IMG/VR virus record: IMGVR_UViG_3300025087_000224
Coordinates: 1 to 33,540 of that record
Strand: one strand, 5' to 3'
Length of the DNA: 33,540 nt
Source of the DNA: a virus
Shown here: positions 1 to 26,032 of the stretch, in pieces
Position numbering within the stretch: the stretch's first letter is position 1
Layout of the letters: the number at the start of each line of letters is the position of its first letter
Position numbers and translations under genes: made by a program
Notes under the pieces: generated by a model
What the model saw: only the letters and a program-made list of their open reading frames with translations
What the model was told of the DNA's origin: nothing
The model's database searches: none

Positions 1-3000
1 TTACATCGCCGCCGGCGCCGGGCATACCGGCCCAGTTGAAGCCGACCATCGTCTCGTTACGAAACTGCGCCTGCTCCGTCTCGACCACGGCCACAGGATC
101 AGCGGCGTAGTCACCGAGAGCGTCTACCGAGTACGCCTTAGCGCTATCGGCCAGTTTCTCGTAGGTCACACTGCCGTCGGGGGGCGGTGTCTGCCCCAGC
201 TTGACCGTCTGCCCTGTCTCAAGCACGGTCCCGTCACACAAGTAGACAGATGTCCCAAACCGCAGCGCCACGATCACTGTGTTATTCCCGTCAGCCAGCG
301 GCGCGGTCTTGTGCACCACTGACGGCGCGACATCCACGGCACCCGCGCTTGTACGCTGCAACGTTACAACCATCCTATCGCCATCGGTCCCGAGCGTCTG
401 GGGGGAGGAAGCAAGGGAGATATCATTCCAGCCTGCGGCCGCAAAAGGCAGGTCGAACCGGAGCGGGGCAGTCCAGGAAAGAGCACCCGTCGTAGCATTC
501 CACGAAATATTTGCTGTCGAAACCAAGCGCAAGTTTCGGTCCTGGTTCGTCCGGCTGTCGTGCTCGTGCGCCAGCAGTACAGCGCCCGTAGTGCTGTTCG
601 TCAGCGTACCTGTTACCCGGTACGAAGACACGATGACCTGTGAGCATCCAGCGACCAGCGTGAGCGTCTTACAATCGACACGAGATACCGTCAGTCCGAC
701 GACAGCCGCTTCAACCGAGAGCAGGCAATCGTCAAGCTCAGCATGCCCGACATAGACACGACTTCCAGTCACACTGACACTCGGCGTTACAGCAGCGGGA
801 TCAAACCCGAGGATCTGAAGCCGATTGACCGACATTCCGGTCCCGCCGAGACTGATAACGCCGGCAACGGTCGTGTCAAACACGATCCGATCAAACACGG
901 AAAGCGAATCATTGCGCCCGATCGTCTGGCTGGCATTGCTGCGGATCTGGATGTCATATCTGTTATTGGCGCCGAACCCGAAGTCGCTGTCGAACCCGGC
1001 AAAAACGTCCCAATTGGCGACACTGTCGAGCACGGTAAACCCGAGGTCGCACTTCCGGTTCTGCTTCACGTACACCCGGTTTGCCTGAACGAAATCAAGG
1101 CTTACGTCTTCACCGTGCCGCACCTCTACATAGTTGGCGACGGATGCATCACGAACGCGGACAGTCTTCTTCAGCACCCGCACACTGCCGGTATTGTTCG
1201 CCACCACGTATGTGTTCGGCAGGATCACGGACATCGACCAGTTACCCAGCACCGCGTACAGCCACCCCCTGAACATCGTTGCTGTTGCGGGATCGTACAG
1301 ATCGACCGGGTCGTACTTCTTGAGCCTTGAGTAGGGCAGGCCGTTACCGATCTGCAACGCAGCGGCGATGTCGATCTGGTAAAGCGTGTGCCCCGCCGGC
1401 AGATCAGGGGGTGCGGGAAGTGCAGCGGCAACCCAGGACGCAGCGGCGTGATCGCCGACGAATGAACGGCCGCTGCACACCAGGTTGTACGTCCCGTACA
1501 GGCTCACAGGGCCGCGGAGTTCTACACCCGACGGAAGGACCAAGTCCTCGCGCAACACAAAGTGCCCATTGGCTTCAACCGTGATCGGCGCCGTCGTACT
1601 GTCGTTGGTGAACACGTCTCGGATTGACAAGTACTCCGCATCAACGTAATCCATCGCTTCGTCAAGCGCCAAAGCGCCGGAGAACGTACCGCGGACGGCG
1701 CCGCGGCGGTCGAGCACCTTCACTGTCGGTTCGTGATCAGCATCCAGCTTGTGCCGCGTATGACAAACAATCGCGGCGTCGGTCACGTGCAGATGCCCGA
1801 GATCCACCACATCGCGGATATCGCGGTACTTCATGTCCAGGGACTGCAACGCTGTAATCACCGCACCGTCTGTCGGCACGACGGGAACGGTCGCAGCCAG
1901 TACTGCCGCCCCTGTGACGCTGACGATCTGGTACGGCTGCAACGGAAGCCGCCCGTCGTCCATCTGCGCCAACACGACACGGTCGAACCTGTGATTACCA
2001 GCAGCACACAGCGCCGCCGAAATGAGGTTCGTCTGGTCTGCCTCAACCCTGATGTAGACGCCATCGCCGGTGACTGCAACACCGTGCTGCACAGACACAT
2101 CGGTAACCGCAGTACCATTTGCGAGCGACAGGCCCTCCAGTACGCCGCCCGCATCAGCGGCGACTGTCCTGGTGGGGGCGGCGAGCGCCCCGAGGTAATC
2201 GGGCTTGCGTACCAGGCACTGCGAGAATGTCACAGCGCCGGCCGGGACTTCGACGTAAGCGATGACGGTGTCTTTCACCGTCAGCGGCGGCAACCGGTAC
2301 ACCGTAAACGTCAACGCCGTCTGCCCGCCGGCCTTCCATGTGGTGTTGACGAGCAGCGTCGTATCATTCACCACCTCTTCGACGGTGTACTCCCCGTTAT
2401 CGCCGGGGGTACCCGTGTCATTGATGCGCAGAATATCGCCCCGCGCCACATTGACGAGGAACCCGCCCGCCAGAGACGTAAGCGTCCGCGTACCGACTGC
2501 CGATGTAGCGCCGTCTGCGGCCCCGGCCCACATCGTCGCCGCTAACCGAAAATACGAAGCGCTCGGCGGCGGCACGGTAAGAGCGTAGGTGTAACTGGCA
2601 AAGAGCACGTCGATCCGGTACGTCCCACCGCCAACAGGCAAGTTGAACAGATTGTCCTGACAGGCATTCTCGCCGATCCATGCATGATCCGGGGGAAGGA
2701 AAACACCGAGTGCCTTGTACGCCACGAAGTTCAATGCAGCCAGTGAACCGACAGGCCAGTCACGGTTCACCGTGATCTGCGTGTCCAGAGGAACGCCCGT
2801 CACGATATAGGCGCCGTTGTCTCCGTTCGATTGGTAGTCTTCGATGACGAGGATGTCGCCGACTGCAACAGCGGCACTGAACCCGCCGGCGACAGACGTA
2901 AGCGTGCGCGCCGCAGGCAGACCTGTTGCACCATCGGTGCCCGGCTTATTGGCTCTAGCGAGATCGGGATCGTGCTGAAACGCGCACCACATGCCTCCGG

Positions 3001-3121
3001 TAGAACCGGGCACGACGTTGAAGCCGCGCTGTACGCCGAGACGGAAAAGCCCCTTACGCGCTTCGTTCAGAAACAGCGTCTGGTCATCTGCCTCGAAGTC
3101 GAAGTATCTCACCTGCGCCAT
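1..3121 (-). CDS. Large tail fibre / receptor-binding-type protein, 3' end outside the window
   Basis: The frame starts at ATG 3121 and stays open to the left edge, giving about 1040 visible codons with no stop. An AGGGG ribosome site lies 6 bases before the ATG. Two copies of a ~70 residue beta-rich module (TLTS..AGGF, GDIL.I, GDNG.Y, VN..W) lie at about residues 62-136 and 201-276. The middle part is rich in short alternating beta strands (for example around ITVEANGHFVLREDLVLPSG), which would suit a beta-helix fibre or depolymerase shaft; that is inference. It is the last gene after gpJ- and gpI-like baseplate genes, where P2- and Mu-type phages keep fibre genes. It is set apart from them by the only long gap in the window, so it may have its own regulation. 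I recognise no catalytic motif, and the C-terminus is not visible. Confidence 0.7.
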   Translation of the reverse strand, partial: MAQVRYFDFEADDQTLFLNEARKGLFRLGVQRGFNVVPGSTGGMWCAFQHDPDLARANKPGTDGATGLPAARTLTSVAGGFSAAVAVGDILVIEDYQSNGDNGAYIVTGVPLDTQITVNRDWPVGSLAALNFVAYKALGVFLPPDHAWIGENACQDNLFNLPVGGGTYRIDVLFASYTYALTVPPPSASYFRLAATMWAGAADGATSAVGTRTLTSLAGGFLVNVARGDILRINDTGTPGDNGEYTVEEVVNDTTLLVNTTWKAGGQTALTFTVYRLPPLTVKDTVIAYVEVPAGAVTFSQCLVRKPDYLGALAAPTRTVAADAGGVLEGLSLANGTAVTDVSVQHGVAVTGDGVYIRVEADQTNLISAALCAAGNHRFDRVVLAQMDDGRLPLQPYQIVSVTGAAVLAATVPVVPTDGAVITALQSLDMKYRDIRDVVDLGHLHVTDAAIVCHTRHKLDADHEPTVKVLDRRGAVRGTFSGALALDEAMDYVDAEYLSIRDVFTNDSTTAPITVEANGHFVLREDLVLPSGVELRGPVSLYGTYNLVCSGRSFVGDHAAASWVAAALPAPPDLPAGHTLYQIDIAAALQIGNGLPYSRLKKYDPVDLYDPATATMFRGWLYAVLGNWSMSVILPNTYVVANNTGSVRVLKKTVRVRDASVANYVEVRHGEDVSLDFVQANRVYVKQNRKCDLGFTVLDSVANWDVFAGFDSDFGFGANNRYDIQIRSNASQTIGRNDSLSVFDRIVFDTTVAGVISLGGTGMSVNRLQILGFDPAAVTPSVSVTGSRVYVGHAELDDCLLSVEAAVVGLTVSRVDCKTLTLVAGCSQVIVSSYRVTGTLTNSTTGAVLLAHEHDSRTNQDRNLRLVSTANISWNATTGALSWTAPLRFDLPFAAAGWNDISLASSPQTLGTDGDRMVVTLQRTSAGAVDVAPSVVHKTAPLADGNNTVIVALRFGTSVYLCDGTVLETGQTVKLGQTPPPDGSVTYEKLADSAKAYSVDALGDYAADPVAVVETEQAQFRNETMVGFNWAGMPGAGGDV
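2294..2521 (-). repeat. Module A, copy 2 of the fibre protein
   Basis: It encodes fibre residues about 201-276, with the pattern DGAT, TRTLTSLAGGF, GDILRIND, GDNGEYTV, LLVNTTW, LTFTVY. It aligns by eye with the copy at 2714-2941 and with modules in the sheath, the gpI-like protein and the 228-residue neck-region protein. Confidence 0.7.
2714..2941 (-). repeat. Module A, copy 1 of the fibre protein
   Basis: It encodes fibre residues about 61-136, with the pattern DGAT, ARTLTSVAGGF, GDILVIED, GDNGAYIV, ITVNRDWP, LNFVAY. The VNRDWP core is identical to that of the first sheath copy. Confidence 0.7.
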
Positions 3122-3122
3122 A

Positions 3123-3509
3123 TCACACCCCTAAACGGCACTCACCGTAGTCCATCGGCGCGCCATTGTCCACGAAAAAAGACCGTAGAAAAAATCGGAC
3201 GAAAAATGACAGAAAATCCGAGCGATTTCTAGTCTGTATAAGACTAGAAATACCTGCGCGAGCGTGCACCCGTCCGCGTTTTATGGGGTTAGAATACCTG
3301 AAAGAATGTATGGTAGAATACTTACAGTCTGTCCTTTTAGTCCTTCGGACACAGTCTTTATAGACAGATACTGTCTGTATACCTGTAGGATTACCGCGGT
3401 TTAACCGCGTCTTATCCGTGGTTAAACCGCGGTGAGAAAGCCTCTCTTTCTTAATTCTTTCCCTACCCTTCCCTTGATACCATCCCCCCGTTTTCGACAT
3501 TATCATCAT
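3123..3509 (-). CDS. Doubtful 128-residue basic ORF spanning the gap
   Basis: The ORF starts at ATG 3509 in an ATGA overlap with the gpI-like stop. It ends two bases before the fibre ATG, so it fits the operon packing exactly. Against it: there is no ribosome site before the ATG, the predicted protein is very rich in Arg, Lys and Ser with no recognisable fold, and it uses AGG, AGA and ATA codons that neighbours seem to avoid. It also runs straight through several perfect inverted repeats. I think the region is more likely regulatory, but a small recently acquired gene cannot be excluded. Confidence 0.22.
   Translation of the reverse strand: MMIMSKTGGWYQGKGRERIKKERLSHRGLTTDKTRLNRGNPTGIQTVSVYKDCVRRTKRTDCKYSTIHSFRYSNPIKRGRVHARAGISSLIQTRNRSDFLSFFVRFFLRSFFVDNGAPMDYGECRLGV
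3225..3251. repeat. Perfect 10-bp inverted repeat
   Basis: Arms ATTTCTAGTC (3225-3234) and GACTAGAAAT (3242-3251) enclose a 7-base loop. It lies about 105-130 bases upstream of the fibre start. It could be an operator-like palindrome or an mRNA hairpin. On the minus strand the loop reads TTATACA. Confidence 0.7.
3290..3323 (-). repeat. Direct repeat TAGAATACYT, 24-bp period
   Basis: TAGAATACCT (3290-3299) and TAGAATACTT (3314-3323) are spaced exactly 24 bases apart. On the transcribed strand they read AGGTATTCTA and AAGTATTCTA. Related AGGTAT sites sit at 3246-3255 and 3378-3384. They are candidates for tandem phage promoter or activator sites; function is inferred only from repetition and location. 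Confidence 0.5.
3393..3433. repeat. Perfect 14-bp inverted repeat
   Basis: Arms ACCGCGGTTTAACC (3393-3406) and GGTTAAACCGCGGT (3420-3433) flank a 13-base spacer. As RNA the stem could extend inwards by a wobble pair and two more pairs. It lies about 70-115 bases downstream of the gpI-like stop in the direction of transcription. No U-run follows on the minus strand (AATCC follows), so it is not a textbook intrinsic terminator. mRNA stabilisation, processing or protein binding are alternatives. Confidence 0.75.
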
Positions 3510-6088
3510 ACAATTTTGATGTTACTTGCTGCGAAGCGGAAAACCTCACGGTACACGTATCCAGCCATCGGATCAGCCGTCGGAACGGACGGAATTATTC
3601 TGTAGCTGATCCCAACATTGCCCGACACGGGCCATGTGGTCGTGACATCAATCGTGTGTGCATCAACGACTTGGAGCACGGCGTAGTCCCCGAGATCCGT
3701 GCTGTCCATCAGACGGAGCATGTCGCCTACTCGAATGCCCGCTGTGGTGAAGTTTCCTGCTGCAGACGTGAATCTGAATGTGCCGGGGACCGGGATGTTC
3801 GTCACTCCGTCCGTCTGCGAGAGCAGCAGGTTGTCGTTGTCGTACAGGTCGAGGTTCAGGTTGATCGAGCATGCGATCGGGTGACTGGAGTCGAAGGGCA
3901 TTCCAGAGTCAAGATGAATGCCGGAATCCCAGTGGTACCTCGGGTGAGTTACAGTGTACTTGGTTCTGAATCCGTAGTAGTGACACAACGCTACCAGCGC
4001 CGAGATGATCCCGATACGCGGGTTAATCCACGGCAGCAAACCCAGGTATACACGCTGCTTGTCGAGCGGGTACTGCTCAGTTGATCTCGGGTTCTGGATT
4101 TCTGCCAGAGAAGCAATGTCCAAGAGGGGAATGAGTGCCTCGACAACAGCGGGTGTGCAGGTCTTCACGTCTGCCGGCAGTAGATAGTCCCGGCTGTCTC
4201 CCGCCCTGTCTACTGTCGCTCCAATCAGGCGCAGCAGTCGAGCCAGGTGTCCCATTTCCGTCGTCGGCCAGCCCCGGCGTACTGTTTCGTTCGTGGACGG
4301 GAGAATCAGGTCGGGGCCGCTGATCGACCGGTCCGTGTCTTCAGTCAGTGATCGCTCTGCGACGAAGCGGGCCGTAGGCAGTTGCGACCTGTACTGGAAT
4401 CCCGTTGTCCTGTCCCCGCCTGCCCGGCAATAACTGTCGCCTGCCCGGCGCCAGAGGTCGTAATTCGTGTATGCTGTGCGGGCAGCACTGGAAATTCGTA
4501 GTTGGTCGATGTACTGCTGCCAATGCAGCGCCCCCATGGCACTACACCCCCACAGACAGCTACTCATCGCCGGGATAGCGACAACACCCGCCTGTGCGAC
4601 TCCAGCAACACCGTCCAGGTATACCCGGTGCAAGCCTGTACCCGTGTTCCACTCGTAGTACACATGGTGCCAGGCCGTATCGGCTATGACGGCCGCCGAT
4701 GTACACGTTACCGTTGCGCCACCTTGGGTGCGTCGCCCTTGCACCGTTCCGTTCGTGATCCAAACCTGGATGCGGTTCAATCCGCCACCGTCAGTAGCGC
4801 CGACGATGTACCTTCCTACCAATGCCGCCAGGTCTGTTGTTCGTATCCACATGTCCATCGAACCGACGGCGGTATTGATGTCGGCGGCTACGGTGTTGCA
4901 GTTGACGTATCCTGTCGCTCCGCACAATACGCCATTACCGAACTTTCCACCGGCGTTCAATGCCGCCGGAGCAACCAGCGTACCTGTGTTGGCGTGTCCC
5001 GAGGAATCGGGGATAACGCTTGCCGGCGCCGTCTCGCAGTGGAGCAATGTCAACACGCTGCTGTCGGAATCAACAGCTTCCGTCAGGTTGATGTCTGCGA
5101 CCGGCTCGGTGTACTTGTGCAGCGTGCTGGTATTCTCAGGGTCGTAGATGAAGAGTCGGAGCGTGCCGCCGCCTTCGTCAATCTCACAGAACCTGGTGGG
5201 TACGGTACGTGTAGGCGAGTACGCCTCCAGGTCTCCGCCGATAGGATCGAACCGCATGATGCGGCGGTTGTCGGCTGTGTGCCACGCCAGCCCGTCTGCT
5301 GACAGCGACAGGCCGTTGAATGCGTCGTGGTAGTAACTCTGTATCGCCGCCGGCAGCGTTGTTGACCCGGTCAGTGCTCCTGTTGTCGGGTTGATCGTTC
5401 GGACGACTGTTGCTGTGTCCAGCAAATTGATGCCGGTCATAATACCGGCAGCCCAGACGATGAAGCCGGCCGAGATGTGCTGCTTGTACATCCCGGTGTA
5501 ATCGACCGAGTACACAAGCCCTGTGGCGGCATACCCTCGGACACCTGAATCGGTAGAGATGAAGACAACGATCTGCCCGCTGGCTGCCGGGTATTCGTGG
5601 ACGTCAAGGCTGCAGCGTGTTCCTTCCGGGGGCGTGAACGCAATCTCGCTCTCGACGTAGCCGCGGGTTGTGTCGAACACCAGAGCAGAGTACCCGGACG
5701 CGGACCGGCCGACCAGCCACACTCGACCGGCGGCCGTATGGGCGTGTACACCAAGCGCGACATCATGCAGACGTTTGACGCTGTGCTGCGTGCCGGAGAG
5801 CACGCTGGACGCCGGGCCTTCGTACAAAGCGAATGCTGAGTAGTAGTACACCGTATCCGCTGAGACGACGATGTCTGCCTGTTGCGCTGGGACGGGAGGC
5901 GTGTAGTCGGCAACCAGGGTACCGTCAGTCTCTGAAGACGGGTGACGAAGTGTATGCTTGCGGACCCGCAGCGTCTTCAGCGCTACCGTTTCTGCTGCGT
6001 TGACGACCGAAACGACCAGCGTCTGCGGCGTATCCAGTGCCGTTGTCGCATCAAAGGACGACAGGAACTCAGGATTGGGGTGCGGCAT
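3506..6088 (-). CDS. Tail protein I-like baseplate/fibre adaptor with LamG-type lectin domain
   Basis: The product has 860 residues; ATG 6088 is preceded by GAGGA. Residues about 1-100 look FnIII-like, with the YYYSAFALYEG strand. About 110-310 has repeated WxxxxR / D..GG beta patterns, possibly a propeller. Residues about 346-545 form a concanavalin/LamG-type domain (DSSGHANTGTL, AWHHVYYEW, HRVYLDGV, IDQLRIS). About 590-740 carries a P2 gpI-like core (MGHLARLLRLIGA, QYPLDKQRVYL, IISALVALCHYYGF). A module A copy is at 771-834 near the C-terminus. In P2/Mu order gpI follows gpJ and links baseplate to fibre, which fits here. The lectin domain suggests glycan binding (inference). P2 gpI is far shorter, so most of this length is added domains. 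Confidence 0.7.
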   Translation of the reverse strand: MPHPNPEFLSSFDATTALDTPQTLVVSVVNAAETVALKTLRVRKHTLRHPSSETDGTLVADYTPPVPAQQADIVVSADTVYYYSAFALYEGPASSVLSGTQHSVKRLHDVALGVHAHTAAGRVWLVGRSASGYSALVFDTTRGYVESEIAFTPPEGTRCSLDVHEYPAASGQIVVFISTDSGVRGYAATGLVYSVDYTGMYKQHISAGFIVWAAGIMTGINLLDTATVVRTINPTTGALTGSTTLPAAIQSYYHDAFNGLSLSADGLAWHTADNRRIMRFDPIGGDLEAYSPTRTVPTRFCEIDEGGGTLRLFIYDPENTSTLHKYTEPVADINLTEAVDSDSSVLTLLHCETAPASVIPDSSGHANTGTLVAPAALNAGGKFGNGVLCGATGYVNCNTVAADINTAVGSMDMWIRTTDLAALVGRYIVGATDGGGLNRIQVWITNGTVQGRRTQGGATVTCTSAAVIADTAWHHVYYEWNTGTGLHRVYLDGVAGVAQAGVVAIPAMSSCLWGCSAMGALHWQQYIDQLRISSAARTAYTNYDLWRRAGDSYCRAGGDRTTGFQYRSQLPTARFVAERSLTEDTDRSISGPDLILPSTNETVRRGWPTTEMGHLARLLRLIGATVDRAGDSRDYLLPADVKTCTPAVVEALIPLLDIASLAEIQNPRSTEQYPLDKQRVYLGLLPWINPRIGIISALVALCHYYGFRTKYTVTHPRYHWDSGIHLDSGMPFDSSHPIACSINLNLDLYDNDNLLLSQTDGVTNIPVPGTFRFTSAAGNFTTAGIRVGDMLRLMDSTDLGDYAVLQVVDAHTIDVTTTWPVSGNVGISYRIIPSVPTADPMAGYVYREVFRFAASNIKIV
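3587..3778 (-). repeat. Module A in the gpI-like protein
   Basis: It encodes residues about 771-834 of the gpI-like protein, with the pattern FRFTSAAGNF, VGDMLRL, GDYAVLQV, IDVTTTWP, ISYRI. It is the most diverged of the copies and lacks the DNG turn. Confidence 0.55.
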
Positions 6089-6176
6089 CTATCTGTCCTC
6101 GGGGGGGAGGTAGGGTATCATTCGATCCGACCCATTCGTGGCGGGAAGGGTCGTTTCCGTTCGTTGCAGGGGTGAG

Positions 6177-7868
6177 TTATACATCCTCTTCAGCATACAC
6201 TACGTCGATCTCGAAGTCCGAGTCCTGCCGGTAGTACATGTACTCGTCGGGCTGGAGTGTGATGTTGCCGAGGTAGCGGGAGGTGTAAATCGTGTAGGTG
6301 TCGCCCAGGGTGAATGTGTCGCCCGGCTCACCAACGATGAACGAGAGCCCGCCTGACGCGTAGACTGCGCCGATTGTACCGATATCGGGAAGGAGCACGC
6401 CGTTCTGGGTCACGAAGTATGTGGTAGCGTCAAACATGATAACGTTCCAGGTGTCTGACGAGGTAAGCGTTGAAGCAAGCGTGAAAGAGTGGACTTCGGG
6501 TGCTGCAGGGTTTGACTGCACGACCCGTGGTTCTCTGGTGAATTTGCTGATATCCACGTAGTCGGTAGTCTGTCCGTTGCTCAGGTTTTCGATCAGAGCG
6601 GAGAAGTCGGACACCTTGTACCCGCGGCCGATCTCGGCGAGAGTGTAACCTAGTGCCGTCGCCAGTTCAGCACGGACCTGCTTGGATATTGTGCTGCGAG
6701 ACATACGGTGTGCCTGCTGTTGAACGACAACACGGCAGGAAGCGACAAGCGGTACTTGTACCAGCGGGTATGCCTCGATTACCAGGCCCTCGACACACAG
6801 GTTCTGGAGATAGCTTTGCAGGTTGGTAAGCAAAGCAGGAGAAGCGGTGCCTCCGCCGTCCGGCATGACGTAGACTCTGAGCACGGACCCGCCTGGACGT
6901 GTAACGCGTACCCTGTAGACACCAGAGAAGTCGTTTGCCAGTCCTTCGGCATCTTCAGCGCGGCGGATGTAGTTGCCCGAGGCCCAGAGGCGCGGCGCCG
7001 TTCGTTTCACCGTGGCGACGTCCGGCCCGTTGGACCCGCCGGTTGCGGCTGTTGTCTGCTGCGCCGACAGCGTCTGTCCCAGCACTCCTGTAAGGACGGA
7101 GAAGCCGTTGGTTGCCAGCGTGAAGTTGCCCGTTGTTCCGGAGCAGACGATCCAGTCGGCCGTAATGGCATCGCCGATCAACGGGCACTTGCCGAACGTA
7201 CCGTCTCCGAATGTGATCCACAGGTAGCCGTCCACGTCGTAGACCGCTTGGTAGCACAGGGTCGTATCGTCGGCGTCGTACAGCGAATCAACTCGGGGAA
7301 CAGTAACGGCGTTCGCGTAGACGGTTAGGTATTCCCGCGGGATGTAGCGGGTCGAGACCTTGTACGCTTGGTACGCTCCACCGAGTGCGGCGGCGACGGC
7401 CTGCCCCGTGAACCGCTGCCCCTGAATGACGGCAGCATCGACATAGGACGATCCGACCGGGATGGATAAGGACGATGTCGTGAGACCGAATAGCGCGGGG
7501 GATGCGAATGTCTTCAACACGGTGTACTGCGGAATGGGGATTGGTGCACCGACGACGGCCCCTGTTTGGTTGGTTAGGCGCACGGTACACCCCGATGCCG
7601 CGGGGCCGGGGGATTTGTAGTCGAGGATCGAGAAGACCTTGAACGCCTGTGTCAACCGGTCTACATCGGTAGCGTTCGACTGACGGAATCTGAAGTCCAG
7701 CGCGAAGTGCTCGGTGCGCAACAGCGAGGCGATCAGGTTGAAGAGTTTACGCCCGTCTCCCACGGTATCGACGTTCGTGATCGACGGAAGATAGGACGGG
7801 ATGTAGGTTTCCAGCAGGGTGCGCAGGTCTTCGGCGCTTTGTACGCCGTCTTTCAGCAGGTCTACCAT
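6177..7868 (-). CDS. Baseplate wedge protein, gpJ / gp6-like
   Basis: The 563-residue product begins at ATG 7868, preceded by GGAG and overlapping the stop of the gp25-like gene. The N-terminal helical part (LRTLLETYIPSYLPSITNVD) is followed by the family-typical WITFGDGTFGKCP at 217-228. Then come ATGGSNGPDVATVKRTAP (from about 275) and LWASGNYIRRAEDAEGLAND (about 294-313), both hallmark stretches of the Baseplate_J family. The C-terminal half has the VPL...V strand and ALGYTLAEIGRGYKVSDF patterns of that family. It should form the wedge ring that couples receptor binding to sheath contraction. A short gap of 88 bases follows, containing a weak CGACCC/GGGTCG inverted repeat (6128-6153) and the ribosome site of the next gene. 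Confidence 0.88.
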   Translation of the reverse strand: MVDLLKDGVQSAEDLRTLLETYIPSYLPSITNVDTVGDGRKLFNLIASLLRTEHFALDFRFRQSNATDVDRLTQAFKVFSILDYKSPGPAASGCTVRLTNQTGAVVGAPIPIPQYTVLKTFASPALFGLTTSSLSIPVGSSYVDAAVIQGQRFTGQAVAAALGGAYQAYKVSTRYIPREYLTVYANAVTVPRVDSLYDADDTTLCYQAVYDVDGYLWITFGDGTFGKCPLIGDAITADWIVCSGTTGNFTLATNGFSVLTGVLGQTLSAQQTTAATGGSNGPDVATVKRTAPRLWASGNYIRRAEDAEGLANDFSGVYRVRVTRPGGSVLRVYVMPDGGGTASPALLTNLQSYLQNLCVEGLVIEAYPLVQVPLVASCRVVVQQQAHRMSRSTISKQVRAELATALGYTLAEIGRGYKVSDFSALIENLSNGQTTDYVDISKFTREPRVVQSNPAAPEVHSFTLASTLTSSDTWNVIMFDATTYFVTQNGVLLPDIGTIGAVYASGGLSFIVGEPGDTFTLGDTYTIYTSRYLGNITLQPDEYMYYRQDSDFEIDVVYAEEDV

Positions 7869-8251: not shown

Positions 8252-8252
8252 G

Positions 8253-8741: not shown

Positions 8742-8749
8742 TACAGACC

Positions 8750-17857: not shown

Positions 17858-17869
17858 TCTTGACTCCTC

Positions 17870-17882
17870 GTCTCAAAGAGAC
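17870..17882 (-). repeat. Small hairpin abutting the ribosome site of the gp26-like gene
   Basis: GTCTC/GAGAC with a 3-base loop directly precedes the GAGGAG ribosome site. It may tune initiation of the chaperone relative to the abundant tube protein; this is inference. Confidence 0.4.
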
Positions 17883-17905
17883 TGTTGACGTGAAACTATC
17901 GACCG

Positions 17906-17924
17906 GAGCGGGAGATCCCCGCTC
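17906..17924 (-). terminator. Hairpin just after the tail tube gene
   Basis: GAGCGGG/CCCGCTC, a 7-bp perfect stem with a 5-base loop, begins 7 bases after the tube stop. No U-run follows in the transcribed direction, so partial attenuation or protection of the tube mRNA 3' end is as likely as termination. Confidence 0.4.
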
Positions 17925-17930
17925 AAATGA

Positions 17931-18443: not shown

Positions 18444-18475
18444 GTGATTCTCCTATTGACGTGTTGCGGGTTGGC

Positions 18476-20839
18476 TTACAGCTTGAAGTTGCCGACGTAT
18501 TCCTCGAACGTGACTCCGGCCGGTGTGACGATCCATTTGATGTAGATACGCTCTGCCGTCTCGGGGAATTCGACCCAGCAGTAACCCTGCGCTGAGTTGG
18601 CCTGCGGGAGCACGGCCGGATCGTTGGTGATGGCGTTGCACTTCGACTCGAAGTTCTTGATCCCGCCGCCGGACTTGACGTACCCGCACGCCTTATCTAT
18701 GACGGATTTGATGTTGCCCCACAGGGTCGAGTCTGAAGTGTCAAACTCCAGTTCGGAAATGTACGAAGCGCCGGTGACTTCCAGCAGGGTCAGCGTCATG
18801 CGGTTGTTGATGCGATTCAGGCGGGAAGTGGACCGGAGACCCGTGTGCTGCCCCTTCAGCATGATCCCCTTGCCCGCGACAGAGACGAGGGGGTTGACGC
18901 ACTGGTTCTCAGCCTGCATCATGTCGCGCTGGTCGAATTCGATGGAGTAGGCCACACCGAGTGCGTGAGGAACGATGCCGCGCTTCGGGCCGGCGGGCGC
19001 TTTCCAGGGTCCGCCCTGTTCGGCGGCGCGGCACATGCAATAGACTATGATACCGGACGGCGGGCAGTTGACGTTCTTGTCGTTGTACTCGTCATACACG
19101 CTGACCTCGGGCCAGGCCATGCAGGAACCGGACGCGCTGATCGGCGATGTACGGATGTTGGTGCCGTTCGACCAGCGCAAGATATCCGTCGGGTTGGTGA
19201 CGGTAGCGATGGGCGGTCCGTCGAGGACGACTTGACAGTCCTTGCGGACCTCGCGGATGGCCTCCATCTCGTTCTGCACCGCCTGCTCGTCTTCACCACC
19301 GGCAGCCAGCACGTCGATCAGCACCTGTTCGCTGTTCTTGAACAGGCGCAGTGCCGCTATCTTGTCGGATGTCGCGATTGTTGCATCTCCGTCGTACCCT
19401 CCGTTGAACACGTAACCGGAAGCGAACAGCGGCTCTGCCAGGTCAGCACGTGCCGTGGTCTGAATCGGCTCAGTCGTTGCAGCGACAACAGCGCCGGACG
19501 GCAACGAGAAGTAGATGCTGCCCGCCGCGTCGGTCGCGAAGGCGGTGCGGTTCGTGTTGGCCCACGACTCCAACAGCACGCCGGACTCGTACAGATCCAC
19601 GGTCCAGTTCGCCGGCGCCCCGTTAAAGACCTTGACTTCAGCAGTGAAGTTGTTACCGCGCGTGCCTTTGTAATAGCCCTGAAGCCGGACGGACGCGGGC
19701 AGGATGTAGAAGTCAAGATTCGCCAGTGTAGCAGCGAAAGCCCGATTCACCGTCAACTGTGTGTCGCTGTCAGTGGAGGTGACAACGTACACGCCGTTGT
19801 CTGTGGTCGGCGATCCCTCGTTCACGATCAGGATATCACCGGCGACAACGCCCCACTTGCTGAAGTAGGAGAACGCCGACGTGAAGGTCTTCAGACCGAT
19901 CGCGGCTGATCCGTCACCGCTTGCCGGAACGGCTCCGCCGGGACCGCCGCTGGTCGCGTCGGGATTGATGATCGTCCGCGGCTTGTAGATGTAAAAGTCC
20001 AAGTTGCTTTTGTTGCCGACAGGCAGGTCGCGGTCCAAGACAACTTGTTCTGCCGACGCGACAGAATCGACCAGGTACACGCCGTCGTCTTCGGTGCTGC
20101 CGGGCGCGGCTTCGTAGATGTGGACAATGTCGCCTGCTGCCACACCGGATGTCGTGAAGTTTTCGCCATTGACTGCAACGGACGTCAGTGTACGTGCCGA
20201 CACGGTTCCGGTCGCGCCGTTCGTCTTGGCGTTGCACCGGGTCGTGTGTACCTCGAAGTTGATGATGGCGCCGGAGGCCGACAGATCAGCGGGCCAGTCC
20301 CGGTTGACGGTCAGTACACCAGCAGCTACGGCCGTGATGATGTATGTCCCATTGCACGTATTCGCCGGGGCATCTTCGTTGATGTACAGGAAGTGCCCAA
20401 CCTTCACTCCGCTGGCGATGAACCCCGGAACAGCAGCGGATGTCAGCGTGCGGACTCCGACGGCCGACAGCAGTCCGTCCGTCCCCGTTTTGAATGCCGG
20501 TGACCGCCCCCCGCGGAGAGTGCCCAGCGCCTTCACGGCCGGGTCAAGCGCCGCGTCGCACCGTACCAACTGCCCGAACCGCCCTTTGCGGAAGTACTCG
20601 CGGACAGTGTACCAGCCGTACTGGATCGAGCCCGCTGCCCAGGTCGCCTTCGGTTTGCCGAATGTCGCCAGGAAGCTGTCATGCGACGTACACAGCGTCG
20701 GAGCCGTGAGCGTGTCGGACATTGCCGGCCCCCACGTCGCGGCGAGAATGGCGCCGAGGCGCAGGTTGACGTTCAGGTTGACGGAGTACGAACGGTCGTC
20801 TTCCTGATTGTATGTGCCGGATGCGTTGTATGTCGTCAT
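18476..20839 (-). CDS. Contractile tail sheath protein with three tandem inserted modules
   Basis: The 787-residue product starts at ATG 20839 behind GGAGG. It has typical sheath ends: an N-terminal arm (MTTYNASGTYNQEDDRSYSV), then SHDSFLATFGKP and SIQYGWYTVREYFRKG near the start, and LQGYYKGTRGNNFTAEVKV after the insert. At the C-terminus are TLWGNIKSVIDKACGYVKSG, the conserved N-x-PAVL stretch, then ERIYIKWIVTPAGVTFEEYV. Residues about 119-380 are three tandem copies of module A. That makes it longer than T4 gp18 (659 residues). Sheath insertions normally project on the tail surface, so the modules are probably surface-exposed (inference). Confidence 0.9.
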   Translation of the reverse strand: MTTYNASGTYNQEDDRSYSVNLNVNLRLGAILAATWGPAMSDTLTAPTLCTSHDSFLATFGKPKATWAAGSIQYGWYTVREYFRKGRFGQLVRCDAALDPAVKALGTLRGGRSPAFKTGTDGLLSAVGVRTLTSAAVPGFIASGVKVGHFLYINEDAPANTCNGTYIITAVAAGVLTVNRDWPADLSASGAIINFEVHTTRCNAKTNGATGTVSARTLTSVAVNGENFTTSGVAAGDIVHIYEAAPGSTEDDGVYLVDSVASAEQVVLDRDLPVGNKSNLDFYIYKPRTIINPDATSGGPGGAVPASGDGSAAIGLKTFTSAFSYFSKWGVVAGDILIVNEGSPTTDNGVYVVTSTDSDTQLTVNRAFAATLANLDFYILPASVRLQGYYKGTRGNNFTAEVKVFNGAPANWTVDLYESGVLLESWANTNRTAFATDAAGSIYFSLPSGAVVAATTEPIQTTARADLAEPLFASGYVFNGGYDGDATIATSDKIAALRLFKNSEQVLIDVLAAGGEDEQAVQNEMEAIREVRKDCQVVLDGPPIATVTNPTDILRWSNGTNIRTSPISASGSCMAWPEVSVYDEYNDKNVNCPPSGIIVYCMCRAAEQGGPWKAPAGPKRGIVPHALGVAYSIEFDQRDMMQAENQCVNPLVSVAGKGIMLKGQHTGLRSTSRLNRINNRMTLTLLEVTGASYISELEFDTSDSTLWGNIKSVIDKACGYVKSGGGIKNFESKCNAITNDPAVLPQANSAQGYCWVEFPETAERIYIKWIVTPAGVTFEEYVGNFKL
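19700..20485 (-). repeat. Three tandem copies of module A inside the sheath
   Basis: Copies lie at about 20246-20485, 19982-20221 and 19700-19918 (residues 119-198, 207-286, 308-380). Shared pattern: TLTS/TFTS, GV.aGdi, ING-Y or DNGVY, LTVNRDWP / VVLDRDLP / LTVNRAFA, then a final hydrophobic strand (NFEV, DFYIY). The linkers carry DG or NGAT before each copy. Confidence 0.75.
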
Positions 20840-20854
20840 TGATTCCTCCGCGTC

Positions 20855-21169
20855 TTAGTCGTTGAGAGTCTTGATCTCGTCGTCTTCGTCGGGCCTGTCT
20901 TCGACTGGCATCGGCAACGGAGGCGGCAGTTCTACCTTCACTTCCACTGTGATTGCTGCGGGCTGCGGTTCTTCGATCGGCAGAATCCGCAGCTTACCGC
21001 TGCGAACAAGGGACTGCAGCGCCGGTTCTTCGATGGCGTAGTCCCCCTCGGCGAACAAGTCGCCGCCGGGTCCGATCACGCTGGTACACGCGTGCCGTTT
21101 TGCCGGTCCCAGGAAGACCCGCACGGTCAGCGCCTGTTCGGTCAGATTCTGAATCCTGTACTTCGCCAT
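20855..21169 (-). CDS. Small beta-rich protein before the sheath
   Basis: The product has 104 residues. ATG 21169 has GGAGG 6 bases upstream and lies next to the previous stop, so a longer start is rejected. The N-terminal 65 residues are beta-like (MAKYRIQNLTEQALTVRVFL, TSVIGPGGDLFAEGDY, LQSLVRSGKLRIL). The remainder is Pro/Glu/Asp-rich and probably disordered. I do not recognise a family. Small proteins at this spot in myoviruses are often tail-completion or decoration proteins, but nothing here proves it. Confidence 0.6.
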   Translation of the reverse strand: MAKYRIQNLTEQALTVRVFLGPAKRHACTSVIGPGGDLFAEGDYAIEEPALQSLVRSGKLRILPIEEPQPAAITVEVKVELPPPLPMPVEDRPDEDDEIKTLND

Positions 21170-21170
21170 C

Positions 21171-22106
21171 TCATGCCTCCGTAAAGAACCCGGCCTCGAC
21201 CGGCGTATCTGCGTCAGGCGCCGTCGTGAACGTAACGGCAACCGCTCCAGTTGTGTAATTCACAGTACCGGTAATCCCGGTTCCCGAGATCACGCCTGCA
21301 CCGTCGTCGAACCCCGTTACCGTTAATCCGCCGACCGTACCCGTCACCAGCACCGAGTATGTCTGCAAATGCATCCCGAACGTATCGCTGAAGTTCTTGT
21401 TCGCTCCATCGCCGGTACCGAGCGGGTGTCTACGTGGGCTGTAGATACGTTCGATCTCGTTCTGTGTGCCCCAATCGAAGAATTTGATGATGATGTTGCG
21501 GGCGACTTGTTTCTCGACCAGCGTGTTGTCGAAGATCCACCCCTCCAGATAGTACGGAAGTGTGAAGCGCACCAACCGCTCACCGAAGCGCTCAGCCGAC
21601 TCTAGGTTCGTCGTGTTGACCACGGCGTTCCCAAAGAGCAGCGTTGCCTTCTTCCAACCCCACGGATCACCGGCGTGGACAGAAAGCCACGCGTATCCGC
21701 GACCGGTCAAAAACACGAGCTTCTGAATGAGTAGGTGTGCCTCGCGCGCCGTCTCGGTCCAGATGTCGGCGGTATAGGGTATCCGGGCAAGCATCGGCAT
21801 TCTGGCGGTCCGCCGCAGGAGCTTTGTTTGCTGCTGCGCCTTGGAGTAGCCCAGATTGCGGATCACGGCTGTTGATTGCCGGTCGCCGGGAAACTCAATG
21901 TTCTCGCCAGCGTACAAGGAGACCAGCGGCAGGTTGGGACGCGACTGTCCAGACTGCAATACCGTTTTCGCTTCGATCATGGCGCGGTCTACTGGTGACG
22001 TGATCACGTTGACGGTGTGTTCTAGTACGCCGCTGCACAGACCAACGAAAGTCTGCCGCATCGCGAGGTCATACGCCTCGAATATATCTACTGGCCTGGC
22101 GCTCAC
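21171..22106 (-). CDS. Putative tail terminator / sheath-stabiliser with C-terminal module B
   Basis: The 311-residue product starts at GTG 22106 (GTGA overlap with the previous stop, GGGGG upstream). Residues 1-228 include RTARMPMLARIPYTADIWTE and LIQKLVFLTGRGYAWLSV, the pattern of gp15-type terminators in which an IPY-type beta strand and an oligomerisation helix occur. Its position before sheath and tube genes agrees. Residues about 229-311 are a separate module (LGTGDGANKNFSDTF, DDGAGVISGTG, GTVNYTTGAVAVTFTTAP) shared with the capsid protein. Confidence in the terminator role is moderate. Confidence 0.55.
   Translation of the reverse strand: MSARPVDIFEAYDLAMRQTFVGLCSGVLEHTVNVITSPVDRAMIEAKTVLQSGQSRPNLPLVSLYAGENIEFPGDRQSTAVIRNLGYSKAQQQTKLLRRTARMPMLARIPYTADIWTETAREAHLLIQKLVFLTGRGYAWLSVHAGDPWGWKKATLLFGNAVVNTTNLESAERFGERLVRFTLPYYLEGWIFDNTLVEKQVARNIIIKFFDWGTQNEIERIYSPRRHPLGTGDGANKNFSDTFGMHLQTYSVLVTGTVGGLTVTGFDDGAGVISGTGITGTVNYTTGAVAVTFTTAPDADTPVEAGFFTEA
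21174..21422 (-). repeat. Module B at the C-terminus of the putative terminator
   Basis: The pattern GTGDGA...F...DDGAGVISGTG.GTVNYTTGA...TF.TAP matches the insert in the capsid protein at 29364-29600. Confidence 0.7.
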
Positions 22107-22501
22107 CTATCCCCCGTATCAGGCGCGCGCCCGCCTTCCATGACAGTAAGCAGCGTGCGGTTCAACTTGTTGAACGCCGCTGTCATTTCACCGACGCGGG
22201 CCTCTAATTCAGAAAACCGCTCCATCGCGTTTGTGTTGGACTGCTTGACAAGCGCAATGTCCTGCTGTGCTGTCGAGAATGAACCGAGGTACGCCTTTTG
22301 CTGGAGCAGGCAGTGATTCTGAATCAGCAAGGCGGCGTCATCTTTCTTGACGACCTTACGTTCGAGATCCACTACCATCTCGTATGCCGTTGTAGTCCGT
22401 TTTACCAAGTACAGAAACAGCGGGATTCCGATACCAGCGATAATCGCTGTGATGACACTCAGGATTGGAAAGACTGCGCCTACAGCACTAGTTTCTTCCA
22501 C
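22103..22501 (-). CDS. Single-pass membrane protein with coiled coil
   Basis: The 132-residue product starts at GTG 22501 behind GAGGT. Residues about 6-34 form one strong hydrophobic segment (VFPILSVITAIIAGIGIPLF), followed by YLVKRT and then a long helical region with heptad-like spacing (YEMVVDLERKVV, FSELEARVGEMTAAFNKLN). The layout resembles spanin-, holin- or virion-anchoring proteins, but no lipobox or family motif is seen. It lies among head-tail connector genes, an odd place for a lysis gene, so a role in the virion or in assembly at the membrane is equally possible. Confidence 0.6.
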   Translation of the reverse strand: MEETSAVGAVFPILSVITAIIAGIGIPLFLYLVKRTTTAYEMVVDLERKVVKKDDAALLIQNHCLLQQKAYLGSFSTAQQDIALVKQSNTNAMERFSELEARVGEMTAAFNKLNRTLLTVMEGGRAPDTGDR

Positions 22502-22533
22502 AGTAGACCTCGGCGGTACGGGACGGAACCATA

Positions 22534-23301
22534 CTACTGCTTCGGGGGTTCTGCCGGCGGCGGCGTCCCGCCATCAGGCGGGGACACCGCGTCTTCGGGT
22601 GGGAAGATGTCTTCATCGTCTTCATCTTCCTCATCCGGCTCTTCTTCGGACTCCGGGTCGAAGTAGAGATCCAGTTCATCCTCGGGGAGTGTGAGTTTCG
22701 CCGTCAGGAAATCGGGCGTCTTCTTCCCTCCGCCCTCTGCCGGCTTGTCGCCGTCGGGCTTCGGCGGGTCCACCGGCGGCACGGGCGGGTCGGGCGGGTC
22801 GGTGTCGGCCCCCTCTTCCTTCTTGCCGGGCTCAGCCGGCTTCTTCTCACCGTCAGGCGCCGTATCGTCTTCGCTCCGCGGTAGGATCTTCTCGACCGAA
22901 CGGAGCGCCAGCGTCAACTGCTCGTCCTCCTCCGACTTCTCGACGATTTCGATCTTGACCCTGGTTCCGGCAGGGATCGTCTCTACCGGCTGAAGCAGGA
23001 CGTAAGAGAAGCCCTCCTGCACCGCTTCGGTAATTGCTTTCACGTTGACCAGCATCTTGACCGCTATGTCGATGCGGAGTTGGTTCAGGTGCGGGAAGTT
23101 CACCGCCAGGAACTCGGCGACGTCCTTCGCGTTCGGCTTCAGTCTGCCCGCAGCGATCTCTGCTTTCGCCGTATCGACCAGCGGGCCGACACGCAGGTCT
23201 TCCAGCATTGAGACGAACGCCTCGACAACAGCGCCGGGCTGTGCCCCGCGCATCACATGCTCAGTCCAGTGCCGAACCGTTGCCCGTGTCTTCTTGCTCA
23301 T
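22534..23301 (-). CDS. Unknown protein with acidic proline-rich disordered C-terminal half
   Basis: The 255-residue product starts at ATG 23301 (ATGA overlap). Residues 1-135 look folded and helical (TEHVMRGAQPGAVVEAFVSM, KDVAEFLAVNFPHLNQLRID), ending in a beta pair (AGTRVKIEIVEKSEED). Residues about 140-255 are low complexity, first Pro/Lys/Asp, then a Glu/Asp-rich stretch with a PPP-rich end. Such acidic tails are common in assembly chaperones and DNA-mimic proteins, but I cannot assign a function. Confidence 0.6.
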   Translation of the reverse strand: MSKKTRATVRHWTEHVMRGAQPGAVVEAFVSMLEDLRVGPLVDTAKAEIAAGRLKPNAKDVAEFLAVNFPHLNQLRIDIAVKMLVNVKAITEAVQEGFSYVLLQPVETIPAGTRVKIEIVEKSEEDEQLTLALRSVEKILPRSEDDTAPDGEKKPAEPGKKEEGADTDPPDPPVPPVDPPKPDGDKPAEGGGKKTPDFLTAKLTLPEDELDLYFDPESEEEPDEEDEDDEDIFPPEDAVSPPDGGTPPPAEPPKQ

Positions 23302-23867
23302 GTTCTCTCCTTACGGCCGGCGTCGATTGAGCGCGCCAGCGCAGTCATCTGATCGAAATCCCGCCAGTTGATATGGTCCCACGCCTCACTTTCGACCTGC
23401 GACAGCAACTGCCGCAGCTTGTCCTGAAGGTGAGTCTTTGCCGTGTCTACTGTCATCGTGCCGACACCGCCGACACGAACCGGCGGATCATCGCCGATGT
23501 CGTCTTTCAGCCCGAGATCCGCACCGGGCGCTTCGTTCAACGCCGCCCGGAGCGAGGAAACTTCAACCGCCTCGGACTGTGCGTGCGGAGCGAGAGCGCC
23601 CTTGGCGTGCGCTGCACGGCGGAAAGTAGTATAGGCATGAACACGCGCGGCTTGGTCGATGTCGGCGTATTCTGTCGGAGCGCCGAAGTACGCCTGTACG
23701 GCACTCTCTGCCGCTTCTTTCGCCGTCCGATACTCGTCGGAGTTGACGCCGTTCTGCCGCTTCACCCACAACAAACGGCGAAACGCCGTGAGTGCCGAAC
23801 GAATCTGTTCGTCCGACACGTCTTCATGCAGTATGCGGAGAAAGCTCTGTTTTGCCGTGTCTGTCAT
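23298..23867 (-). CDS. Unknown helical protein in the neck region
   Basis: The product has 189 residues. ATG 23867 gives an ATGA overlap with the previous gene; the 36 codons further upstream overlap it and are rejected. It is almost entirely helical and charged (QIRSALTAFRRLLWVKRQNG, DEYRTAKEAAESAVQAYFGA, AKTHLQDKLRQLLSQVESEAW). I recognise no motif. By position it may be a head-tail joining or assembly factor. Confidence 0.6.
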   Translation of the reverse strand: MTDTAKQSFLRILHEDVSDEQIRSALTAFRRLLWVKRQNGVNSDEYRTAKEAAESAVQAYFGAPTEYADIDQAARVHAYTTFRRAAHAKGALAPHAQSEAVEVSSLRAALNEAPGADLGLKDDIGDDPPVRVGGVGTMTVDTAKTHLQDKLRQLLSQVESEAWDHINWRDFDQMTALARSIDAGRKERT

Positions 23868-24247
23868 ATCTGTGCCATCGCCTTCTTGATCTGGTGGATG
23901 ACGCCGCGCCACGCCTGATGCGGTCGGATACCAAGTGAGACGGACCCGTACTCGTAAAGCCGCAAGCGACGCCACATCTCAGGGTCTATTCTCACAGCAT
24001 ACGCTCCGGGGGTTTCGATGATGGTCACGCTGTCAACAACGGCAGAATAGGTGATCTTGTACTCGGCAGGGACAGTGACATCGGTTCCAACGGCCGACAG
24101 TTGCGACTCAATGCGCTTCAGCACCTCGGCGCGGACTGCATACGCCCTTGCTGCCATCTTGCTCTGCTGCGCCTGCACGACTTCAGGCCGGCGACGAAGG
24201 ATAACGTCGGTGATCTTCTTTCCCTTGGTTCCGCTATCGAATGTCAC
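23864..24247 (-). CDS. Unknown small head-tail region protein
   Basis: The product has 127 residues. I chose GTG 24247 (GTGA overlap with the previous stop, GGGGGAG about 11 bases upstream); ATG 24298 would overlap that gene by 55 bases. A helical N-terminal half (VVQAQQSKMAARAYAVRAEV) is followed by beta strands (YKITYSAVVDSVTIIETPGA). This helix-then-beta arrangement and its size resemble HK97 gp10/neck-type completion proteins, but the resemblance is weak. Confidence 0.55.
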   Translation of the reverse strand: MTFDSGTKGKKITDVILRRRPEVVQAQQSKMAARAYAVRAEVLKRIESQLSAVGTDVTVPAEYKITYSAVVDSVTIIETPGAYAVRIDPEMWRRLRLYEYGSVSLGIRPHQAWRGVIHQIKKAMAQI

Positions 24248-24597
24248 GGTGTGAAGATCTCCCCCGTGGCTTTGTTCACATACAGCGTCTTGAAGCACCA
24301 GATCCGGTCTAGCTGCAGACTCACGGCAACGTCATCCAGCGGTAACTCCGCCAATCGAGACCGTACCTGGACTTCTGTGGCGTCCAAGTCCTTGCCGCTT
24401 TCGGTGATTACGAATTTCTCGTCGTCAGTCAACTGGATACGGAATATGTCCTGCGGTTGCATCCGACTTGCGGCGTGTGCTGCCGCTGATCTGTGCACAC
24501 GGTCTGCTACCGCCTCGATGTCGGCAACCATCTCGCTCTGCAACTCGATGCGCCGGCGGATCACTTCACTCGGCGTCAGTGGTTCGTATACCCGCAC
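24244..24597 (-). CDS. Unknown small protein in the neck region
   Basis: The 117-residue product starts at GTG 24597, one base overlapping the previous TAG, with AGGGGG upstream. It has a helical N-terminus (LTPSEVIRRRIELQSEMVAD) and a mixed C-terminus ending KTLYVNKATGEIFTP. The general pattern (helix, DDEKFVITESG, paired small size) is similar to the next gene, so the two may be a diverged pair or bind each other. No family is recognised. Confidence 0.55.
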   Translation of the reverse strand: MRVYEPLTPSEVIRRRIELQSEMVADIEAVADRVHRSAAAHAASRMQPQDIFRIQLTDDEKFVITESGKDLDATEVQVRSRLAELPLDDVAVSLQLDRIWCFKTLYVNKATGEIFTP

Positions 24598-25349
24598 TAC
24601 GCCCCCTGCACAGGTGTGACTTTCTGCTGATTCGGCGGCAGGTCTCCGCCGGTTGGAGCGGCGTCTGCGAGCAGCGCCTTACGAATGGAGTTTGCTACAT
24701 CCTGCGGCGTCGCCAATCCGTCGAACTTCAGGCTCCGGTTTACCGACCCCAGAATCGGGTGACGGTAGTCCAGGTTGACATGCCCGACTGAGTTGCGGCG
24801 CTCTGCATCGTGCCCGTCGCTTACACCGATACTGAATGGAGCAGTGCAGCAGCAATACCCGTCGTTATTCGATGCGACAGCAACGGGATCGAGCCGCACG
24901 CTGAGAGAGACATCGGCCGGCTGCCCGGCGATTGACGCCGTAAGCGTGAGATGGCGGGATACGTCGCCGCTTGCCGGCCAGCACGGCGTCGGTTCCTCTT
25001 TCCCTGCGTGCTCCAAGGGTCCGATCTTGCCGAGTCCATCCAGTCCGGCAATCACGGCGTCAAGGAATGCCCGAGTCTGTCCGTACAACACCGCCGCCAA
25101 GCAACCGGGCACTTGGCGGTAATCCTGTGTCTTCACGACTTCGGGCTTGTGGATCGGGTACGCATCACCGACCCATTCGACCAGTGTGCGTCGCCCATCC
25201 GACGGACGGATTTCATGCAGGTTCTTCGGCTGCTGGCCCTCGTCGAGTGTACGGTGACCGGGAGAGCGCTGTACCAGCGAAAGCGCAGGATCGTCGGACG
25301 CAGACGAAAGCTGTGTCAGTTCACGAAATCTGTCAGAAGCATCCGTCAT
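24597..25349 (-). CDS. Unknown virion-region protein, 250 residues
   Basis: ATG 25349 has GGAGG 8 bases upstream and overlaps the previous stop. The N-terminal 75 residues are polar and likely flexible; the middle has beta strands (HLTLTASIAGQPADVSLSVR) and a CCC run (GYCCCTAPFSIGV). The C-terminus is Pro/Gln-rich. I do not recognise it. It stands in the connector gene run between capsid and tail genes. Confidence 0.55.
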   Translation of the reverse strand: MTDASDRFRELTQLSSASDDPALSLVQRSPGHRTLDEGQQPKNLHEIRPSDGRRTLVEWVGDAYPIHKPEVVKTQDYRQVPGCLAAVLYGQTRAFLDAVIAGLDGLGKIGPLEHAGKEEPTPCWPASGDVSRHLTLTASIAGQPADVSLSVRLDPVAVASNNDGYCCCTAPFSIGVSDGHDAERRNSVGHVNLDYRHPILGSVNRSLKFDGLATPQDVANSIRKALLADAAPTGGDLPPNQQKVTPVQGA

Positions 25350-26032
25350 GTCGAAATCCTCCGCTTGTGCGTGACTTCACTTGAACCGAGCCACCGCACA
25401 TGAACGCCACTACCTGTGAAGAGATCGTCGGGTCTGATGTCGGTGATCTCCTGTTCCCGCCCTTCGTCGTCCACGAACCTGTCGCCGACTTTGGGTGTGA
25501 TGGAGTTATCCTCCAGCGTCTTTGCTGCGAATACCAGGATACCGTTTCGCGGACGGTCGTAACCGTATTTTGTGCAGACAACGGGGGACGGGTCCATGAT
25601 CAACAGGAACGGGATCGCCGCTGTCGCGGTCCATGCAACCGAACCCGAAGCCGGATCACCGTACACGTCGTGGTAAATGACCTCGTAGGGCAACCCCGTC
25701 TTACCGCCGTAAGGCCAGTCACTGTCTACTTTTAGCGTAGTGACATTGACGATCTGCACCACCTTGTAATCGCCGTTGTCGAAATCATCTGTAACCCCGG
25801 CAATCCGGAGCAGAGAGTTCACCAGTACGGTTGTCGAGAAATCCTTTGTTGTGTCGGTGAACAGCCGGTTAGTCACGACGGCACTGGTAGCGCCGACGGT
25901 TCCGCTGATAGCGGCGATCTGCGATTGCCGATACAAGACGCGGTTCGGCCGGTAAAGCTCACCGTATTCTCCGGCGCGTGCCTTCAGGTACGCTGCATCT
26001 TGCGCTGACTGGAATAGGTTCGACTGTGTCAT
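25346..26032 (-). CDS. Neck-region structural protein carrying a module A-like domain
   Basis: The 228-residue product starts at ATG 26032, overlapping the stop of a micro-ORF as ATGA. Residues 1-45 are helical (AQDAAYLKARAGEYGELYRP). Residues about 47-121 match module A (VNSLLRIAG, DNGDYKVVQIVNVTTLKVDSDWP, LPYEVIYH). The C-terminal part is beta-rich with GDRFVDDEGREQEITDIRPD. It is probably a virion component at the head-tail junction; the family is not recognised. Confidence 0.55.
   Translation of the reverse strand: MTQSNLFQSAQDAAYLKARAGEYGELYRPNRVLYRQSQIAAISGTVGATSAVVTNRLFTDTTKDFSTTVLVNSLLRIAGVTDDFDNGDYKVVQIVNVTTLKVDSDWPYGGKTGLPYEVIYHDVYGDPASGSVAWTATAAIPFLLIMDPSPVVCTKYGYDRPRNGILVFAAKTLEDNSITPKVGDRFVDDEGREQEITDIRPDDLFTGSGVHVRWLGSSEVTHKRRIST
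25670..25894 (-). repeat. Module A in the 228-residue neck-region protein
   Basis: Pattern: LVNSLLRIAG, DNGDYKVVQIV, LKVDSDWP, LPYEVIYH. It retains the DNG.Y turn and the W-P core but lacks TLTS. Confidence 0.5.

Follow-up and report, generated by a model that had tools for sequence, protein, structure and literature searches.

Accessory domains on phage virions have been described from several settings. Immunoglobulin (Ig)-like domains, which are small beta domains, occur as additions on tail sheaths, tail tubes and other virion proteins and are missing in some relatives, and roles in adhesion or stability have been proposed for them (PMC9230969, PMC8718954). For T4, published work describes domain I of the sheath protein gp18 (residues 98-188) as a six-stranded barrel with a helix, which protrudes and makes no subunit contacts (PMC3004832). 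That phage proteins of different functional classes, neck and tail proteins included, have domains in common is reported to be a general phenomenon (PMC10684548). The present paper concerns a module, designated M1, which is encoded in the sheath, neck-region, gpI-like and fibre genes of the phage on virus record IMGVR_UViG_3300025087_000224. This record of 33,540 bases was analysed over its whole length and is called the window; it is a fragment of a larger phage, which is an uncultured, T4-like phage with a contractile tail. M1 is interpreted as an accessory surface domain that would have been copied long ago into outer virion proteins and inherited in place since then, with a possible role in adhesion. 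A probability of about 0.45 is given to this reading.

Homology of the M1 copies

The original prediction had proposed one module in seven copies on four virion proteins. The seven segments were found in open translation, free of stop codons, on the minus strand and within open reading frames (ORFs) at the predicted places; the ends given for the gpI-like and the neck copy were too narrow and now reach 3817 and 25903. Hidden Markov models (HMMs) built with one protein left out recovered the two fibre copies at 69.4 and 64.4 bits, the three sheath copies at 33.1, 41.7 and 29.7 bits, the gpI-like copy at 44.1 bits and the neck copy at 43.9 bits. The best score among shuffles of each left-out protein (1000 each) was 7.4 bits, by which chance or composition was ruled out as the source of the similarity, and among the 31 ORFs searched no other ORF scored above 1.9 bits. 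A six-frame search of the window returned exactly seven copies. Models made from some copies find the others for all four carriers, which bears the prediction out, and by these profiles the seven segments are copies of a single homologous module, carried by proteins that differ in place and function. Single-sequence searches failed for some pairs: the neck copy matched sheath copy 1 at an independent E-value (i-E) of 1.8, and sheath copies 3 and 1 matched the neck copy at 0.51 and 0.15. Since such searches miss these pairs, it is the profile that links the most distant copies.

M1 could not be placed in a known family. The seven copies gave a single Pfam match under the cut-off (E 0.025, one of seven members) and eight weak PHROG families, the best of which, a tail fibre family, was matched by one member at E 0.0024. 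A PDB sequence search with the module gave nothing below E 0.04. When 50,697 phage records were searched by tblastn for isolated phages with the module, fibre copies 1 and 2 and a neck relative of 236 amino acids (aa) had no match at E 1, and a three-module stretch of locus L184 had 15 weak matches (E 0.5-0.6).

The sheath, fibre and capsid genes of the window are also present in records of 79,193 and 103,972 bases, with 100% identity in the best segment, and these two records are near-identical twins of the window's phage. In them, the fibre ORF is a frame of 2078 aa with a third module copy, so that the phage has eight copies. The fibre and gpI-like carriers are unnamed by Pfam, PHROGs and NCBIfam, apart from a lectin-like LamG_3 domain at aa 390-539 of the gpI-like protein (Pfam); no gpI or tail protein I model of the three databases matched the gpI-like carrier, and no membership in the P2 gpI family was found. 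The neck carrier matched no Pfam family. With hhalign it gave P 0.003 over 70-71 columns against T4 gp14 at a probability of 9-11% (control against a sheath profile, P 0.021), and a probability of 0.3% against the single T4 gp14 sequence.

Layout and probable inheritance in related phages

The window sheath belongs to phrog_23 (E 2.3e-44). In hhalign alignments, its residues 472-784 correspond to residues 334-657 of T4 gp18 (probability 100%) and its residues 2-96 to residues 1-85 (97%), which identifies the carrier by sequence as a sheath of the T4 gp18 type with a conserved core at both chain ends. Residues 383-471 gave no T4 alignment, so that the join of the array is placed approximately. 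Since the flanks of the array (aa 119-382) align to T4 residues 1-85 and 334-657, the array falls in the part of the sheath where T4 has its domains I and II. M1 resembles domain I in its region of the sheath chain and differs from this single domain in forming three or four tandem units. Among seven aligned sheaths, the one of the window and six at 33-42% identity to it, the array has a single, shared location; six of these sheaths contain three units and one contains four. Bacillus phage SP-15 has a sheath of 494 aa, which is 38% identical to that of a related record, G005 (120,930 bases), across the matched 52% and shows a gap at the array. The module was not found in the 14 SP-15 proteins searched, and neither was a counterpart of the neck carrier (best i-E 0.61).

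A pattern taken from the second half of the module, and blind to the carrier, identified 19 viral loci, five of which belong to the window's phage and its twins. In the 14 others, from 13 records, the module was located in the sheath in 12, in a gpI-like protein in one and in a fibre in one; L191/L197, L189/L194 and L195/L199 are near-duplicate pairs with identical modules. A search of whole records matched 17 of 17, as expected from their selection. Record G010 (52,283 bases) repeats the layout of the window's phage, with three copies in the fibre, one in the gpI-like protein, three in the sheath and one in the neck protein. G005 was found to have three copies in the sheath, one in the neck protein and two in the gpI-like protein, together with four weak matches in two other frames. 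The neck proteins of the window and five relatives have the module between the same flanks (6/6), and in the gpI-like proteins a copy is placed just ahead of the C-terminus (3/3); the extra copy of G005 lies earlier in the chain, where the two other gpI-like proteins show a gap. The module can come and go as a unit. Related uncultured phages share one layout, with three to four tandem units on a T4-type sheath, one on the neck protein, one near the end of the gpI-like protein and three on the fibre. The four-carrier pattern, which had seemed unusual in one phage, thus recurs beyond the window's phage.

Two further frames were observed. A frame of 474 aa in record G003 (L233, 954-2375, minus strand) is a further carrier, with one module, and has no PHROG match. 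In G005, a frame of 654 aa (L232, 1136-3097) has three weak, more distant copies, and its C-terminus gave a weak head-closure match (E 0.037).

A tree was made of 45 modules from nine phages with i-E below 1e-5. Left out were the partial sheaths L071 and L190, the module-repeating records G007, G014 and G015, the twins of the window's phage, and the weaker matches of G016, G017, the 654-aa and 257-aa frames of G005 and the 823-aa frame of G009. Labels for the position in the protein required 15 changes on this tree against a shuffled mean of 30.1, and none of 200 shuffles was as low; labels for the phage required 32 changes against a mean of 31.9, with 123 of 200 shuffles as low. The copies group by position and not by phage, so that on the simplest reading their dispersal is old and was inherited since before these phages diverged. 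The tree is poorly resolved: of its 42 inner branches, 11 have good support. None of six groupings was rejected by approximately unbiased (AU) tests (p 0.18-0.49), and these clade tests speak neither for nor against an exchange at a later time.

Predicted fold and possible role

An AlphaFold2 model of fibre copy 1, based on 41 aligned modules, reached a predicted local distance difference test score (pLDDT) of 97.9, with strands at residues 4-6, 13-16, 30-33, 43-52, 55-58 and 72-75; residues 21-24 form a short helix. The module is predicted to be a small, self-contained six-strand beta-barrel of about 75 residues; the label of a barrel was taken from the structure matches, and one copy was modelled. 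In a Foldseek search of the PDB nothing was found at E 0.001, the best matches being the endosialidase of phi92 (E 0.017) and the tail tube of the phage Mystique (E 0.019). VIA-align gave Z values of 8.0 for the LKA1 gp49 tailspike, 7.6 for the Mystique tail tube, 6.7 for the capsid protein VP1 and 6.5 for the phi92 endosialidase. For residues 183-258 of Uba1, which we take to be the FCCH domain, Z was 7.7 (root-mean-square deviation 2.5, 71 residues); no FCCH-like Pfam family was found for any of the seven copies. These five barrels resemble M1 in arrangement over 66-74 residues and differ from it in lacking sequence support, and by the warning of the tool, Z values of 6.5-8.0 may signify just a common arrangement.

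Among predicted viral proteins, the best match had an E-value of 0.0012, and the 50 best matches listed included tail fibres, two baseplate J-like proteins and two tail sheaths, so that such folds appear to be widely used in phages. One of these matches was the S-TIM5 sheath (rank 28), for which the similarity by sequence is not significant (i-E 0.064). In its predicted six strands and helix M1 would differ from the phage Ig-like domains. No Ig family was found for the seven copies in Pfam at E up to 5, and no Ig entry stood among the top structure matches listed, which are lists that do not rule out a family.

On the reading of an old accessory domain, M1 would have been copied long ago to give three tandem units on the sheath, one on the neck protein, one on the gpI-like protein and three on the long fibre, and would afterwards have been inherited at those sites, now and then gaining or losing a single unit. 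The modules may face outwards on each carrier, which is inferred, since the structure model of the window sheath (seven sequences) reached a pLDDT of 44.1 and is too poor to use. By analogy with the proposal for phage Ig-like domains, the module may provide the virion with many weak contacts to cell-surface or environmental molecules. This function is put forward tentatively, at somewhat less than even odds. The presence of glycan-degrading phage tailspikes among the fold matches counts for adhesion, which along with stability has been proposed for extra sheath domains (PMC9230969).

Several points weigh against this reading, the poor sheath model among them. The fold matches reach the level of a common arrangement. 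A sialic-acid site of the K1F endosialidase has been located on a beta-barrel (PMC12632334); the stretch matched in endosialidases may or may not be such a site. When 41 modules were compared by hhalign with four T4-type sheaths, no sequence link to T4 gp18 domain I emerged (probability 0.9%). Domain I is reported to bind the baseplate as well and possibly to initiate the assembly of the sheath (PMC3004832), and a role in assembly is therefore possible for the modules. A net negative charge was found for 45 of 45 modules, on average -8.1 per 100 aa, which disfavours polyanionic targets and makes an inert coat a real rival.

The alternative that survives best, fairly unlikely as it is, holds that neighbouring modules, or a separate decoration protein docked to them, bridge subunits as a cement and stabilise the tail, the neck and the fibre base. 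It would be consistent with the keeping of the tandem sheath array across divergent relatives, with the inserted domain of the YSD1 tail tube, described as having large contacts with its neighbour (PMC8718954), and with the published proposal of stabilisation mentioned above. However, the T4 domain of the same sheath region is described as free of subunit contacts, the number of sheath units varies between three and four and is zero in SP-15, and no partner protein was identified. A little less probable is that the modules form an inert or repulsive acidic coat, which would have no specific partner and would keep the virions in solution, or that they are a neutral domain tolerated in exposed loops. 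The charge of the modules, which are more acidic than the remainder of most carriers, all eight of the window's phage included, speaks for such a coat; yet the remainders of two carriers, the G005 gpI-like protein (-8.4) and the 474-aa frame of G003 (-8.1), are as acidic, and positions and core residues were kept over a long divergence, more than a filler would predict.

An ongoing exchange of the module between the genes of this phage, by recombination or gene conversion, would be consistent with the gains of single units and with two neck copies that the tree sets apart from the others, the first having a sheath copy as its neighbour (support 86/54) and the second a gpI-like copy (93/87). 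It is considered very improbable, as the copies do not cluster by phage, those of the window are just 53-69% identical pairwise in DNA, and the joining of the neck copies (p 0.18) or of the gpI-like copies (p 0.22) was not rejected. Of the spread by recombination that had been suggested at first, the portable unit is retained, as seen in the extra gpI-like copy of G005 and the four-unit sheath, and a recent spread in this phage is not supported, the copies clustering by position and not by phage. Convergence of short beta-rich stretches in place of common descent, which might account for the pairs left unlinked by single-sequence search, is next to negligible against leave-one-out scores of 30-69 bits across the whole module.

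A second module and the wider significance

The features of the window are listed in Table 1. All named genes lie on the minus strand and comprise those for the capsid, connector and neck, sheath, tube, tape measure, baseplate, gpI-like and fibre proteins; several of these names were derived from order and size. The capsid gene is of the gp23 family.

Table 1. Positions of modules M1 and M2 and of the M1 carriers in the window
Feature	Position	Strand	Basis or remark
M1, fibre copy 1, aa 61-136	2714..2941	-	HMM, six-frame search; copy modelled
M1, fibre copy 2, aa 201-276	2294..2521	-	HMM, six-frame search
Carrier, long fibre protein, first 1040 aa of the frame, truncated at window start	2..3121	-	name from size and gene order only
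M1, gpI-like copy near C-terminus, about aa 758-834	3587..3817	-	HMM envelope, six-frame search, alignment of relatives
Carrier, gpI-like protein, 860 aa, with LamG_3 domain	3506..6088	-	name from gene order only
M1, sheath copy 1, aa 119-198	20246..20485	-	HMM and sheath alignment
M1, sheath copy 2, aa 205-287	19979..20227	-	HMM and sheath alignment
M1, sheath copy 3, aa 308-381	19697..19918	-	HMM and sheath alignment
Carrier, T4 gp18-type tail sheath, 787 aa	18476..20839	-	phrog_23, hhalign
M1, neck-region copy, about aa 44-121	25670..25903	-	HMM envelope, six-frame search, alignment of relatives
Carrier, neck-region protein, 228 aa, possibly T4 gp14-like (weak)	25346..26032	-	alignment of relatives, weak profile match
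M2 in gp23-type capsid protein, aa 156-236	29361..29603	-	phmmer, Pfam
M2 at C-terminus of gp15-like protein, aa 227-311	21174..21428	-	phmmer, hhalign

A second module, M2, is common to the capsid protein and the protein encoded just before the sheath (phmmer E 1.7e-11). The latter resembles T4 gp15 (hhalign E 7.7e-5, probability 62%, 132 columns). M2 has a weak similarity to DUF2460, and a profile of its two copies gave hits in frames at loci of related phages, for the most part at aa 165-315. Within the window no cross-match was found between the M1 and M2 families. It is conceivable, if rather doubtful, that T4-type phages of this uncultured lineage have virions dressed with both portable modules, M1 on sheath, neck, gpI-like protein and fibre and M2 on capsid and gp15-like protein, as one multivalent coat that would present the same two chemistries over much of the surface.

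M1 also has a core, GD...(D/N)NGxYxV, in common with GDRVLV-type tail fibre repeat units, to which it is joined by iterated profiles. One such iterated profile drifts towards the fibre units and was excluded from the counts. The link to these units (hhalign P 2e-6, 32 columns) is circular, as the sequences were gathered with the same motif, and it was not counted as a sign of common descent. Two frames of Polyangiaceae contigs (L171, 2-6514, and L168, 2755-7998) were seen to contain 13 and 11 tandem units with a GD...NNGxYxV core.

Portable accessory domains on phage virions were already known; here, one that is non-Ig by sequence occupies several outer proteins of the window's phage and is preserved at these places in its relatives. 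This differs from the general sharing of domains in that a single module is found on the sheath, neck, gpI-like and fibre proteins of one particle, at inherited positions. Phage accessory domains have mostly been treated protein by protein, and M1 stands at defined sites on four carriers that are kept in divergent relatives. Sheaths with zero, three or four units offer a natural comparison for the purpose of such domains. The theme of accessory domains need not involve the Ig family, and a module that gives the impression of recent shuffling can be a design inherited from long ago.

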